Virus record (IMG/VR): IMGVR_UViG_3300035181_001055
Coordinates: 62,001 to 126,000 of that record
Reading direction: 5' to 3' (one strand)
From: a virus
DNA: 64,000 bases
The position numbers and the translations under genes are program-made. A model generated the notes under the pieces. It was given only the letters and a program-made list of their open reading frames with translations. It searched no databases and was not told where the DNA came from. Of the stretch, positions 20,239 through 63,985 are shown in pieces (position 1 is the first letter of the stretch; every line of letters begins with the position of its first letter).

Positions 20239-21711
20239 ATGAAAGAGTTTTATACATTTGTTGATCAACAAGGTTCAAGAATGTTTCATCGGTACTGGGG
20301 CAGCGATGAAAGAAAGATTGAAGTTATTGAGGGGTTTCCTATCGAGCTATTTATTGAAGGTAAACGCAGAGATTCTAAAGGATTGCACGGTGAAAGTTTA
20401 AGCAGAATTGAGTTTAATAGTATTGATGATGCTATGGAATTCATTCGTGAATATAAAGACATTTCTCCCATTCACGGTCAAACAAGTCTCCCTCACCAAT
20501 TTATCGCACATCGATACCCTAGTGAAATCGAATTTGATATTAGCAAGTTCGTCATTGCTAACATTGACATCGAAACCAAGTTTGATAATGGATTCCCGTC
20601 GCCTGATCGCGCTGACCAGGAAATCACTGCCATCACATTGAAGCGTTTCGGAGAAGACAAGTTTGTGAGCTGGGGGATCAAGCCGTATAAGGTTAAAAAT
20701 GATAGCGACGAGTACGTGTTGTGTGAAAATGAGAGCGATCTATTGGTCAAATTTATCAATTACTGGAATCGTCTAAAGCCAGACATCATTACTGGCTGGA
20801 ACGTTCAGGGGTTTGACGTTCCTTATCTTGTGAATCGAATTACTAATGTTCTAGGGGAAAATGTTGCTGCTAAACTATCTCCTTTTCATCCTTATACGTC
20901 TCGCGTCTTCAATGAAATTGAAATTCAAGGTGAGCAAAAGAGCTATCGCATTCTTGGCATAACAGTTTACGATTATTTGGAGCTATACAAGAAATTCAGC
21001 CCGAGAAAACTTGAGCGATATTCTCTTGATTTTGTCGCCCATGTCGAGCTAGGTGAACGCAAAATCAATTACTCCGAGTACGGCAATCTGATGGATCTTT
21101 ATGAAACGAATTATGATTTGTTTATGGATTATAACATCCATGACGTTCGTCTCGTGGAGAATATTGACAAGAAATTGAATTTCATGTTCTCTGCTTTAAC
21201 AATGGCTTATATGGGCCATGTTCGTTTGCATGAGATTTTTTCACAAGTTCGTCTATGGGATACAATGCTCTATAATGAGCTGAGAGCTGAAGGTGTTCAA
21301 ATCCCGCCTCAAGTTCGCCGAGGCAATGTTGATGGAATCGAAGGCGCATTTGTTAAAGACCCGATCCCTGGTCTTTATAAATGGGTTGTTTCGTTTGATT
21401 TGACGTCTCTGTATCCTTCAATTATCATGCAGTACAATCTATCCGCTGAAACTGCAGTTGAGCCTGCGGTGGGAAACTTGGTTAGCAAAATGGTTGATAT
21501 GTCTTATGAAACATCCCGTTTGAAGGATGAAAATCTTACAATGACTGCTAATGGAGCGACTTTCACGCGAGATTTCAAAGGCGTTATGCCTCGATTGGTT
21601 GAAAAGATGTTTAGCGGACGGAAAAAATATAAGAATATGATGCTCGAGACAAGAAAAGATCTCGAGAGCATTAAAGCTGAGTTGAGCAAGAGAGGTATTA
21701 AGTATGATTGA
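20239..21711 (+). CDS. 43A: DNA polymerase, N-terminal part (T4 gp43A)
   Basis: First half of a family B replicative polymerase that is split into two genes. Its 490 residues contain the N-terminal domain and 3'-5' exonuclease: ANIDIETKFDNGFPS (Exo I), GWNVQGFDVPYL (Exo II) and YNIHDVRLVENI (Exo III). They also carry palm motif A, FDLTSLYPSIIMQYN. It ends in the fingers after a helix rich in K and E. A strong GGAGG precedes the ATG. The stop lies 8 bp inside the next gene. Confidence 0.95.
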   Translation: MKEFYTFVDQQGSRMFHRYWGSDERKIEVIEGFPIELFIEGKRRDSKGLHGESLSRIEFNSIDDAMEFIREYKDISPIHGQTSLPHQFIAHRYPSEIEFDISKFVIANIDIETKFDNGFPSPDRADQEITAITLKRFGEDKFVSWGIKPYKVKNDSDEYVLCENESDLLVKFINYWNRLKPDIITGWNVQGFDVPYLVNRITNVLGENVAAKLSPFHPYTSRVFNEIEIQGEQKSYRILGITVYDYLELYKKFSPRKLERYSLDFVAHVELGERKINYSEYGNLMDLYETNYDLFMDYNIHDVRLVENIDKKLNFMFSALTMAYMGHVRLHEIFSQVRLWDTMLYNELRAEGVQIPPQVRRGNVDGIEGAFVKDPIPGLYKWVVSFDLTSLYPSIIMQYNLSAETAVEPAVGNLVSKMVDMSYETSRLKDENLTMTANGATFTRDFKGVMPRLVEKMFSGRKKYKNMMLETRKDLESIKAELSKRGIKYD

Positions 21712-22972
21712 AATTAGTAAAATGACTGACGACGAGCTGCTTTCTTTGTATAAAGAAAAGAAAAATAAAGAAGCATCGTATGAAGCAATGCAATTGGCAT
21801 TGAAAATTGCACTGAACTCTCTGTATGGCGCGCAAGCGAATCAGCATTTTCGATATTACTCAACTGATATTGCTGAAGGTATTACATTAACGGGTCAATT
21901 GACGATCCAATATATTTCAAATGCTATCAATGAGTTTATGAACTCTAAGCTAGGAACTGTTGGAGTTGATTATGTGATCGCGAATGACACCGACTCGGCA
22001 TACATTCGCCTCGACGAGCTGGTTGAAAGAATCGTTCCTAAAGATACGCCGACACAGAAAGTGGTTGATTTTATTGACAAGTTTGCATCAGTTGCTCTTG
22101 AGCCAATGCTTTCGAAGAAATTTTCTGAGTTGGCAGACTACGTCAATGCTCTAGAAAATAAGATGCACATGAAGCGAGAAGCAATTGCGGATCGCGGAAT
22201 CTGGCGTGCAAAAAAGAACTATATTCTACAGGTTTATGACAATGAAGGTATTAGATACAATGAGCCTAAATTAAAGACAGTTGGAATTGAAACAGCGAGG
22301 TCTAGTACACCTGAAATAGTTCGTAATGCTTTGGAAAAATCTCTAACAATTCTTTTGAATGGAACTGAAGAAGAGATTCAGAAATTTGTGAAAGAGTTCA
22401 AAGAGGTTTTCATGAATTCGTCTATCGAGGAGATCGCTTTCCCTCGAGGCGTTAGTGATATTGACAAGTGGGTTGATCTTAGTGGGCGTGAAAAGTGGAA
22501 AACAGGCGCTCCTATTCATGTGAAAGCATCGATTGTTTATAATGACAAGCTTCGCACATCTGGTCTGCATAAGAGATATCCGCTCATCAAAAATGGGGAT
22601 AAGATAAAATTTGTTTATCTCAAGACGCCGAATCCTGTCAGAAACAATGCCATTGCTTTTACTGATTTTTTGCCTCCTGAGTTTCAGCTTGATAGTTATG
22701 TTGATCGTGAACTTCAATTCGAAAAGACTTTTCTAGAGCCGCTCAGAAGTTTCACTGAAATCATGGGGTGGCATACCGAGAAGATCAATACAATAACTGG
22801 GTTTTTCGGAGACGATGCGGCGCCAAGCAAGGTGCGAGTCAGCGCTGTGACGATGAGCGAATCATTCAAGCAACCCTCAAAAAATAGGTTGACAGCCGAC
22901 CAAGAATGCCTTAAAATAAAGGCAAAATCGAGATCGCGACGCTCAGCGGCTACGCTTGATGGGTTTTTCTGA
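21704..22972 (+). CDS. 43B: DNA polymerase, C-terminal part (T4 gp43B)
   Basis: Second half of the split polymerase, 422 residues. It starts in the fingers and contains motif B (KIALNSLYGAQANQHF), motif C (ANDTDSAYI), the thumb and a C-terminal tail ending AATLDGFF, which resembles the clamp-binding peptide of T4 gp43. Start ATG overlaps the gp43A stop (ATGATTGA), so translation is coupled and the two chains should be made equally. The overlap means this is a stable gene split rather than a sequencing frameshift; no homing endonuclease lies between the halves. A promoter for uvsX is embedded near the end. Confidence 0.94.
   Translation: MIEISKMTDDELLSLYKEKKNKEASYEAMQLALKIALNSLYGAQANQHFRYYSTDIAEGITLTGQLTIQYISNAINEFMNSKLGTVGVDYVIANDTDSAYIRLDELVERIVPKDTPTQKVVDFIDKFASVALEPMLSKKFSELADYVNALENKMHMKREAIADRGIWRAKKNYILQVYDNEGIRYNEPKLKTVGIETARSSTPEIVRNALEKSLTILLNGTEEEIQKFVKEFKEVFMNSSIEEIAFPRGVSDIDKWVDLSGREKWKTGAPIHVKASIVYNDKLRTSGLHKRYPLIKNGDKIKFVYLKTPNPVRNNAIAFTDFLPPEFQLDSYVDRELQFEKTFLEPLRSFTEIMGWHTEKINTITGFFGDDAAPSKVRVSAVTMSESFKQPSKNRLTADQECLKIKAKSRSRRSAATLDGFF
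22889..22917 (+). promoter_or_regulatory. Promoter for uvsX
   Basis: TTGACA, 17 bp, TAAAAT, inside the 3' end of gp43B and 70 bp before uvsX. Confidence 0.8.
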
Positions 22973-62552: not shown

Positions 62553-62627
62553 GGGGCTATGGTGTAACTGGGAACATTGCGCTCTTGCACGGCGTAGTCG
62601 TCGGTTCGAATCCGACTAGCTCCACCA
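62553..62627 (+). tRNA. tRNA-Ala (UGC)
   Basis: Complete cloverleaf with encoded CCA. Acceptor GGGGCTA pairs with TAGCTCC including the G3-U70 alanine identity pair; loop CTTGCAC gives anticodon TGC; T arm GTCGG-TTCGAAT-CCGAC. Confidence 0.93.
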
Positions 62628-62631
62628 AATT

Positions 62632-62706
62632 GCATCCTTAGCTCAGTGGTAGAGCATCTCCCTTACAAGGAGAGGGTCCGCGGCTCGATACCGTGAGGAT
62701 GCACCA
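62632..62706 (+). tRNA. tRNA-Val (UAC)
   Basis: Acceptor GCATCCT / AGGATGC, anticodon stem TCTCC / GGAGA with loop CTTACAA (anticodon TAC), encoded CCA. T loop is CTCGATA, slightly unusual for its first base. Confidence 0.93.
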
Positions 62707-62715
62707 AAAAATCGG

Positions 62716-62744
62716 TTGACATCTTGCTCGAAGTGATATATAAT
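62716..62744 (+). promoter_or_regulatory. Consensus promoter inside tRNA cluster
   Basis: TTGACA, 17 bp, TATAAT, 14 bp before tRNA-Asp. It drives Asp, Leu, Ser and probably the downstream tmRNA region. Confidence 0.93.
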
Positions 62745-62757
62745 ACAAAGACAATGA

Positions 62758-62832
62758 GGCTCCAAAGTGTTCATGGACGCACGCATGCCTGTCACGCATG
62801 AAGAAGGGGATCGTTACCCCTTGGAGCCGCCA
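62758..62832 (+). tRNA. tRNA-Asp (GUC)
   Basis: Acceptor GGCTCCA / TGGAGCC, anticodon stem CATGC / GCATG with loop CTGTCAC (anticodon GTC), T stem AGGGG / CCCCT, encoded CCA. Confidence 0.92.
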
Positions 62833-62836
62833 GCAT

Positions 62837-62920
62837 GCCCTGGTGATGGAATGGTAGACATTGCGGCCTTAGAAGCCGCTGCTGAAAAGCGTGGGGGTTC
62901 GAGTCCCTCCCAGGGCACCA
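62837..62920 (+). tRNA. tRNA-Leu (UAG)
   Basis: Acceptor GCCCTGG / CCAGGGC, anticodon stem GCGGC / GCCGC with loop CTTAGAA (anticodon TAG), long variable arm, T loop TTCGAGT, encoded CCA. Confidence 0.94.
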
Positions 62921-62941
62921 TTTTACAATGTAAAATTTGAA

Positions 62942-63030
62942 GGAGAGCGGGCAGGGCGGTAATGCAGCGGATTGCTAATCCGTGATCCATGAAAATGGGT
63001 CGCTGGGTTCGATTCCCAGGCTCTCCGCCA
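62942..63030 (+). tRNA. tRNA-Ser (GCU)
   Basis: Acceptor GGAGAGC / GCTCTCC, anticodon stem GCGGA / TCCGT with loop TTGCTAA (anticodon GCT), long variable arm, T loop TTCGATT, encoded CCA. Confidence 0.93.
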
Positions 63031-63217: not shown

Positions 63218-63521
63218 TAACTTCGAAGCGCGGCTCGCTAAAGCAGACGAATTTTTTAAGGAAAAGGGACTGAGAATCAAGCATGTGCGTGATATCTACG
63301 GCAGCGGCGGCATCACTGTAGTATATCGTCGTCAGAAAAAGAATTCTTTCATTGAGCTTTCGACTGCTATTTGCAGCAAGAAAGATCAGTACGATAAGAA
63401 AATCGGACGCATTCTAGCTACCGAGAGTTTCGAGAGAGGTGAAGTGATTCGAGTTCCGCTTCTTCGCGGATTCAATTCGGCGAATATGATTTCGATGATG
63501 TTCGGTAATTTGGTTTGCTAA
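63195..63521 (+). CDS. Hypothetical protein
   Basis: 108 residues, basic, mixed strand and helix (LRIKHVRDIYGSGGITVVYR, IRVPLLRGFNSANMISMMFG). No family recognised. It ends just before the acceptor piece of the permuted tmRNA. Confidence 0.75.
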   Translation: MKKNAGLDNFEARLAKADEFFKEKGLRIKHVRDIYGSGGITVVYRRQKKNSFIELSTAICSKKDQYDKKIGRILATESFERGEVIRVPLLRGFNSANMISMMFGNLVC

Positions 63522-63534
63522 ATATGTGAAATGG

Positions 63535-63796
63535 CTGTAAACTCGGCTGAAGAAAGTGCGATGGACGGCGGTTCGACTCCGCCCAGCTCCACCAAAAGAA
63601 TAAATGCTTAGGTAGTGTTCTTTTGAAGGGGCTGCAAAGGGTTCGACGTCGCATCGAGTATGAAGCTTGGGCAGCTCGACAGAAAAGTCGTTAAAACTAA
63701 ACCAAAGTAAACGCAAACGATGGAGTTTACGCATTGGCGGCCTAAATAACCGCCTAGGGTTTCGGTGGGTTTCCTCGTAACAGAATAACCCACCAC
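63535..63796 (+). ncRNA. ssrA: Circularly permuted (two-piece) tmRNA
   Basis: Ribosome-rescue RNA in permuted order. The acceptor piece comes first: H2 strand, T arm GGCGG-TTCGACT-CCGCC (63567-63583), CAGCTCC and ACCA ending at 63594. An intervening 33-nt loop follows, closed by AAAAGAA / TTCTTTT (63594-63600 with 63618-63624). The coding piece starts GGGGCTG at 63628, which pairs with CAGCTCC with the alanine G3-U pair. H2 re-forms (GUCGCA with UGCGAU, CGAGU with ACUCG). The tag starts at GCA 63713 and reads ANDGVYALAA, stop TAA 63743-63745 in the loop of stem GGCGG / CCGCC. A final stem GGTGGGTT / AACCCACC (63764-63794) resembles a pseudoknot stem. The tag differs from E. coli only in three residues and should target proteins to ClpXP. 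Confidence 0.93.
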
Positions 63797-63805
63797 TGAT
63801 TACCA

Positions 63806-63895
63806 GGAGGTGTGGCCGAGTGGTTTAAGGCAACGGGCTTGAACCCCGTCAGAGGCGAAAGCCTCTCGTGAGTTCGAATCTCACCGCCTCCGCCA
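63806..63895 (+). tRNA. tRNA-Ser (UGA)
   Basis: Acceptor GGAGGTG / CGCCTCC, anticodon stem ACGGG / CCCGT with loop CTTGAAC (anticodon TGA), long variable arm with AGAGGC-GAAA-GCCTCT, T loop TTCGAAT, encoded CCA. Confidence 0.95.
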
Positions 63896-63911
63896 AAATT
63901 TGTTATAATAT

Positions 63912-63985
63912 GCGGATGTAGTTCAATGGTAGAACCTTAGCCTTCCACGCTAATGACGCGGGTTCGATTCCCGCTATCCGCTCCA
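63912..63985 (+). tRNA. tRNA-Gly (UCC)
   Basis: Acceptor GCGGATG / TATCCGC (one G-T pair), anticodon stem TTAGC / GCTAA with loop CTTCCAC (anticodon TCC), T arm GCGGG-TTCGATT-CCCGC, encoded CCA. The cluster probably continues beyond the window. Confidence 0.95.

Follow-up and report, generated by a model that had tools for sequence, protein, structure and literature searches.

Circularly permuted, two-piece tmRNA genes have been described in phages as well as in bacteria. A 2014 survey named phage tmRNAs only for mycobacteriophages and Bacillus phage G (PMC4131195). In 2022, a two-piece tmRNA was reported in the T4-like phage Melnitz; the same study obtained 133 unique tmRNA structures from 402 phages and counted 53 two-piece candidates, 50 of them from marine or aquatic samples (PMC9004378). 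In bacteria, the permuted ssrA of some Burkholderiales is represented by the Rfam model beta_tmRNA (RF01850), and its tags include ANDENYALAA and ANDESYALAA.

Here, we analyzed a 64,000-nucleotide stretch (the window; bases 62001-126000) of a 126,753-base IMG/VR virus record, and confirmed that positions 63533-63802 of the window, on the plus strand, are a circularly permuted (two-piece) tmRNA gene. The locus was matched by Rfam beta_tmRNA (63478-63802, 128.4 bits against a cut-off of 84, E=8.4e-39) and by Rfam tmRNA_permuted (63533-63745, 128.2 bits against a cut-off of 47, E=9.6e-25), and ARAGORN called it a permuted tmRNA with the tag ANDGVYALAA. Beta_tmRNA is the best Rfam subtype, and the ANDxxYALAA style of tag is common to the window gene and the Burkholderiales genes. 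By contrast, the window gene is phage-borne, sits on a long branch of the tmRNA tree, and has a tag whose exact sequence the scan of bacterial genomes did not return. Melnitz and Pelagibacter phage HTVC008M resemble the window phage in having a permuted tmRNA with its own tag in a T4-like genome, and their major head proteins are 58-60% identical to that of the window phage. In Melnitz, however, the tmRNA neighbors a late-transcription coactivator gene rather than tRNAs and ClpP, the spacer is about 142 nt instead of 33 nt, and the tag is different; a glutamine riboswitch is also reported for Melnitz (PMC9004378). Since Melnitz and about 50 other two-piece phage tmRNAs were already known from the 2022 report, the window gene adds a member to a known kind, and the novelty implied by the preliminary description does not stand. 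We consider it probable, at roughly 0.83, that the gene encodes a functional two-piece tmRNA belonging to a T4-like phage.

Anatomy of the gene and its tag

The CCA-bearing acceptor half lies upstream of the coding half, and near the two ends of the spacer between them AAAAGAA and UUCUUUU can pair, extending the acceptor stem (Table 1). The coding half contains the 5' strand of the acceptor stem, the GGGUUCGAC D-loop-like motif, a P2 strand, the tag frame, the stop-codon stem and a pseudoknot-type stem. The acceptor stem carries the G3-U pair of alanine identity, and the acceptor and T stems are conserved, as seen in sequence and covariation. The tag frame runs from a resume codon to a stop codon (TAA) and encodes a degron-like C terminus. 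The preliminary description had placed the CCA end at 63594, followed by a 33-nt spacer and a G3-U acceptor stem, and all of these were found at those positions; its outer limits (63535-63796) are a few bases off the model limits, and among the predicted mature ends the CCA and G1 can be placed exactly. The covariance-model and ARAGORN check that it proposed returned matches to permuted models and thus upheld its central claim of a permuted tmRNA.

Table 1. Features of the tmRNA gene and its surroundings, with two related phage genes; coordinates are window positions unless another record is named.
Feature	Coordinates	Strand	Basis or remark
3' (acceptor) half, including P2 strand	63533..63594	+	Rfam RF04321/RF01850, ARAGORN, stem covariation
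T arm, T stem GGCGG/CCGCC	63567-63583	+	Sequence
Acceptor 3' strand CAGCUCC	63584-63590	+	Sequence
Discriminator A	63591	+	Sequence
Encoded CCA	63592-63594	+	Sequence
Internal transcribed spacer, 33 nt	63595..63627	+	Sequence, fold, comparison with spacerless L341
5' (coding) half	63628..63802	+	Rfam RF01850 reaching 63802; sequence
Acceptor 5' strand GGGGCUG, G3-U pair	63628-63634	+	Sequence
Tag reading frame	63713..63745	+	GCA AAC GAT GGA GTT TAC GCA TTG GCG GCC TAA; ARAGORN
Stop-codon stem GGCGG / CCGCC	63736-63740 / 63750-63754	+	Sequence
Last stem, closing the gene, GGTGGGTT / AACCCACC	63764-63771 / 63787-63794	+	Sequence
tRNA genes Ala(TGC), Val(TAC), Asp(GTC), Leu(TAG), Ser(GCT)	62553..63030	+	Upstream of tmRNA; ARAGORN
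Candidate sigma-70 promoter TTGACA-17-TATAAT, 12/12 consensus, inside tRNA array	62716..62744	+	Consensus match only
tRNA-Ser(TGA), tRNA-Gly(TCC)	63806..63985	+	Directly downstream of tmRNA; then tRNA-Trp(CCA); ARAGORN
ClpP-like ORF, 200 aa	Record 126094-126696 (L193:94-696)	+	94 bases past window end; after tRNA-Ser, tRNA-Gly, tRNA-Trp
Moby permuted tmRNA (L201)	NC_048802.1 68083-68349		Unannotated; hypothetical ORF overlaps part
X1 permuted tmRNA (L204)	OQ427096.1 121009-121337		Unannotated

The completeness of the gene bears on whether its RNA could act against trans-translation, titrating SmpB or occupying ribosomes as a decoy and so blocking the host's own system. A precedent for inhibition exists, as a molecule consisting of the tRNA-like domain only and resembling the tag-less RNA of mycobacteriophage DS6A strongly inhibits tmRNA (PMC4131195). 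In the window gene, however, the tag frame, the stop codon, the alanine identity pair and the CCA are all intact, and we regard such an inhibitory role as very improbable.

The stems are also supported by comparison. The region folds with z = -2.75, and equal stability was reached by 2 of 200 shuffled sequences. In 45 distinct sets of stems extracted from the window gene and from viral and bacterial permuted tmRNAs, canonical pairs occupy 527 of 540 cells (97.6%) of the acceptor and T stems. Shuffling the 3' strands 500 times gave 436 such cells on average and never more than 455, a null that ignores kinship. Several pairs have changed on both sides; for example, T1 occurs as GC, CG, AT and TA, and T2 does likewise. 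G3-U is present in all 45, but for the relatives the constancy of pairs 1-3, including G3-U, is a consequence of the extraction pattern, which itself sets the outer ends of the acceptor stem.

Once the charged alanine is included, the appended peptide would read AANDGVYALAA, compared with AANDENYALAA in Escherichia coli. Ordinary degrons show AAND..Y..LAA features, which correspond to SspB/ClpXP contacts. These features are kept in the phage tag, which therefore looks like a canonical degron; the preliminary description had rightly assigned the phage a tag of its own, although its suggestion that this tag redirects ribosome rescue finds no backing, as nothing suggests a redirected fate. The exact tag was also not found in other viral contigs in the tag search. 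Across bacteria (one genome per species), the ANDxVYALAA pattern was found 106 times with D, six times with E and twice with N at the variable position, and never with G, and wherever ARAGORN called a tmRNA with such a tag, the gene was of the one-piece form. An attempt to assign a host by tag failed for these reasons. The tag can thus be described as unusual in its letters, given the absence of G from the pattern scan, and ordinary in its degron features. In the first set of viral permuted genes, 39 of 43 distinct tags close with AA preceded by L, I, M, F, V or A. Separately, unusually long tags of 24-33 aa were observed in the permuted tmRNAs of six contigs (L310 (G527), L005, L026, L028, L040 and L054), such as AKASTFKYMQVPASVALAAIDGEFALAA in L054.

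Phage context and distribution of the permuted form

PHROG matches in the record include the T4-type gp18 tail sheath, gp20 portal, gp23 major head protein, terminase and scaffold, along with UvsX, clamp loader, helicase, ribonucleotide reductase and baseplate wedge. A T4-type DNA polymerase is matched as well, and together these genes identify a T4-like phage, as the preliminary description had proposed. The polymerase is represented by two adjacent ORFs of 490 and 422 aa (window 20239-22972). The major head protein shares 58-63% identity with its homologs in Acidovorax phage ACP17, Xanthomonas phage X1, Variovorax phage V45v66, Stenotrophomonas phage Moby, HTVC008M and Methylophilales phage Melnitz; a DNA similarity search against annotated phages returned tRNA-like fragments only. 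A bacterial contaminant was considered and rejected, as the flanking genes on the same strand belong to phage families and the gene lies within a tRNA array. The contig ends about 950 bases beyond the tmRNA and the genome is not closed, which we counted against the functional reading.

Among these relatives, Rfam tmRNA_permuted detected the permuted form in the T4-like phages Moby, X1, HTVC008M and Melnitz, with no match in ACP17 and V45v66; in the record regions inspected for Moby, X1 and HTVC008M, the gene is unannotated. A larger collection of T4-like viral contigs, most of them fragments, was left out of the presence/absence comparison. In addition, a pattern scan of IMG/VR gave 73 permuted candidates, with ARAGORN agreeing for 72, and a short-spacer scan gave 31 more, the majority of which were called permuted. 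The patchiness among relatives, including the lack of a match in ACP17 and V45v66 and beside the ClpP of a related contig (L343, discussed below), would fit a passenger, a gene picked up from a host by chance and transcribed with no effect on infection. Yet the stems covary, the tag frame and C-terminal AA are intact across deep divergence, and permuted tmRNAs recur widely in viral contigs, and we therefore consider a passenger gene improbable.

The preliminary description also took the permuted form to point to the host group, which is unsafe. Permuted tmRNAs are present in phages of Stenotrophomonas and Xanthomonas, while the permuted form was found in 1 of 198 genomes from their host family, a statement that relies on this sample of the Luteimonas family together with six genomes giving one-piece matches, of which five are Lysobacterales. 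The single permuted match among the 198 (G953:C1:3782593-3782822) could be native or prophage-derived. Around a Paludibacterium, permuted matches came from 37 of 150 genomes at the level of phylum, 1 of 229 in the class and 14 of 349 in the order, with the stricter filters of these large bacterial searches meaning that weak matches can drop out. The tmRNA tree likewise offers no supported bacterial neighbor for the window gene, and the nearest tmRNA in it is just 67% identical.

A ClpP-like gene downstream of the tmRNA

The ORF that follows the downstream tRNAs matches PHROG 1827 ("ATP-dependent protease," E=5.9e-64) and Pfam CLP_protease (PF00574, E=6e-9), and its catalytic Ser, His and Asp align with those of solved ClpP, leaving the triad intact. 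It is thus assigned to the ClpP family as a predicted peptidase. Elsewhere in the record (G000:C1:25326-25688), a further ClpP-like match scored lower, at 52 bits.

The most similar near-full-length ClpP (72% identity) was found in two viral contigs (L341 and L342), both with a permuted tmRNA upstream (L341:2697-2880 and L342:2697-2880; tag ANDAVYELAA; 111 bits in cmscan). These tmRNAs can be aligned with the window gene over most of its length, the ClpP-like gene after them is 72-73% identical to that of the window phage, and the start of an ORF with a VVDGDT motif follows ClpP, as in the window record. Unlike in the window phage, no tRNAs separate tmRNA from ClpP, two tag residues differ, and the spacer is zero rather than 33 nt, with GGGGCTG starting right after the CCA. 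A single cut would then make both ends. In the other extracted genes, spacers range from 3 to 142 nt in viral and from 4 to 115 nt in bacterial sequences. Another contig whose ClpP belongs to this group (L343:2560-3060) retains a tRNA-Thr, a small ORF and ClpP with no tmRNA match between them, suggesting that the tmRNA is dispensable there.

In the window phage, the ClpP-like match starts 258 nt past the ARAGORN end of the tmRNA; the corresponding distance is 30 nt in L341/L342, 58 nt in the ANDAFYGEMRLAA group, 0 nt in L369 and 1.0-1.5 kb in two more groups, and every listed ClpP is downstream on the same strand. Overall, the pairing of tmRNA and ClpP is recurrent in several phage lineages and not general, because for 8 of 58 distinct tags a same-strand ClpP-like gene follows at a distance of no more than 2 kb (about five lineages by our similarity grouping, the counts being uncorrected for kinship), and in six isolate phages a related ClpP has no tmRNA within 3 kb of it. 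We found no literature linking tmRNA to phage ClpP, which does not prove absence.

One interpretation of this pairing is a tag-and-destroy cassette, in which the phage tmRNA writes the phage tag and the adjacent ClpP-like subunit helps to degrade the tagged proteins, in a protease that contains, or is modified by, the phage subunit. This would extend the functional reading rather than exclude it. The same-strand downstream position across several groups, the excess of eight tags with ClpP downstream over one with ClpP upstream within 2 kb, and the alignment of Ser, His and Asp with solved ClpP argue for it, and we also counted in its favor the six isolates with no tmRNA within 3 kb of ClpP. 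On the other hand, no adjacent ClpP was seen for 49 of the 58 tags (some flanks being too short to show one), L343 carries ClpP without tmRNA, and Moby, X1, HTVC008M and Melnitz carry tmRNA with no match to PHROG 1827. Moreover, phages often encode ClpP-like proteins (1599 records), and the best PHROG in two of the five groups (L068 and L019) is a head maturation protease, so the meaning of the ClpP neighbor may differ there. We therefore regard the cassette as tentative and rather unlikely.

Proposed role during infection

As a functional two-piece tmRNA, the window gene would be transcribed within the phage tRNA array, in which it sits among tRNA genes on the same strand, an arrangement that supports function. 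The Rfam and ARAGORN matches, the covarying stems, the encoded CCA, the C termini of the viral tags, the T4-type genes of the record and the permuted tmRNAs of T4-like relatives speak for it as well. The consensus site inside the array is a possible promoter of the tRNA/tmRNA transcript, although the scan saw three sites where 3.8 were expected at its threshold. Host RNase P and other processing nucleases would excise the spacer, and the resulting acceptor piece, ending in CCA, and coding piece, starting with G, would pair. The G3-U pair would allow charging with alanine, and the charged RNA would bind SmpB and EF-Tu of the host and enter ribosomes stalled on broken mRNAs. As smpB was not found anywhere in the 126,753-base record, host SmpB would have to be used. 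AANDGVYALAA would then be added to unfinished proteins and be recognized by host ClpXP/ClpAP, and possibly also by the phage ClpP-like protein, leading to their degradation. The likely benefit would be that ribosomes are kept in use during infection, similar to the role of phage tRNAs.

The locus is a further well-formed example of a two-piece tmRNA from a T4-like phage, and the comparisons indicate that a phage with the permuted form need not have a host whose own tmRNA is permuted. The gene without a spacer offers a natural test of precursor cleavage in two-piece tmRNAs. Of all the leads, the neighborhood of tmRNA and ClpP is the most interesting, and it points to a testable link between the two phage products. 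If the cassette is true, the phage would possess a private tag-and-destroy unit, in an arrangement that recurs in several phage lineages.
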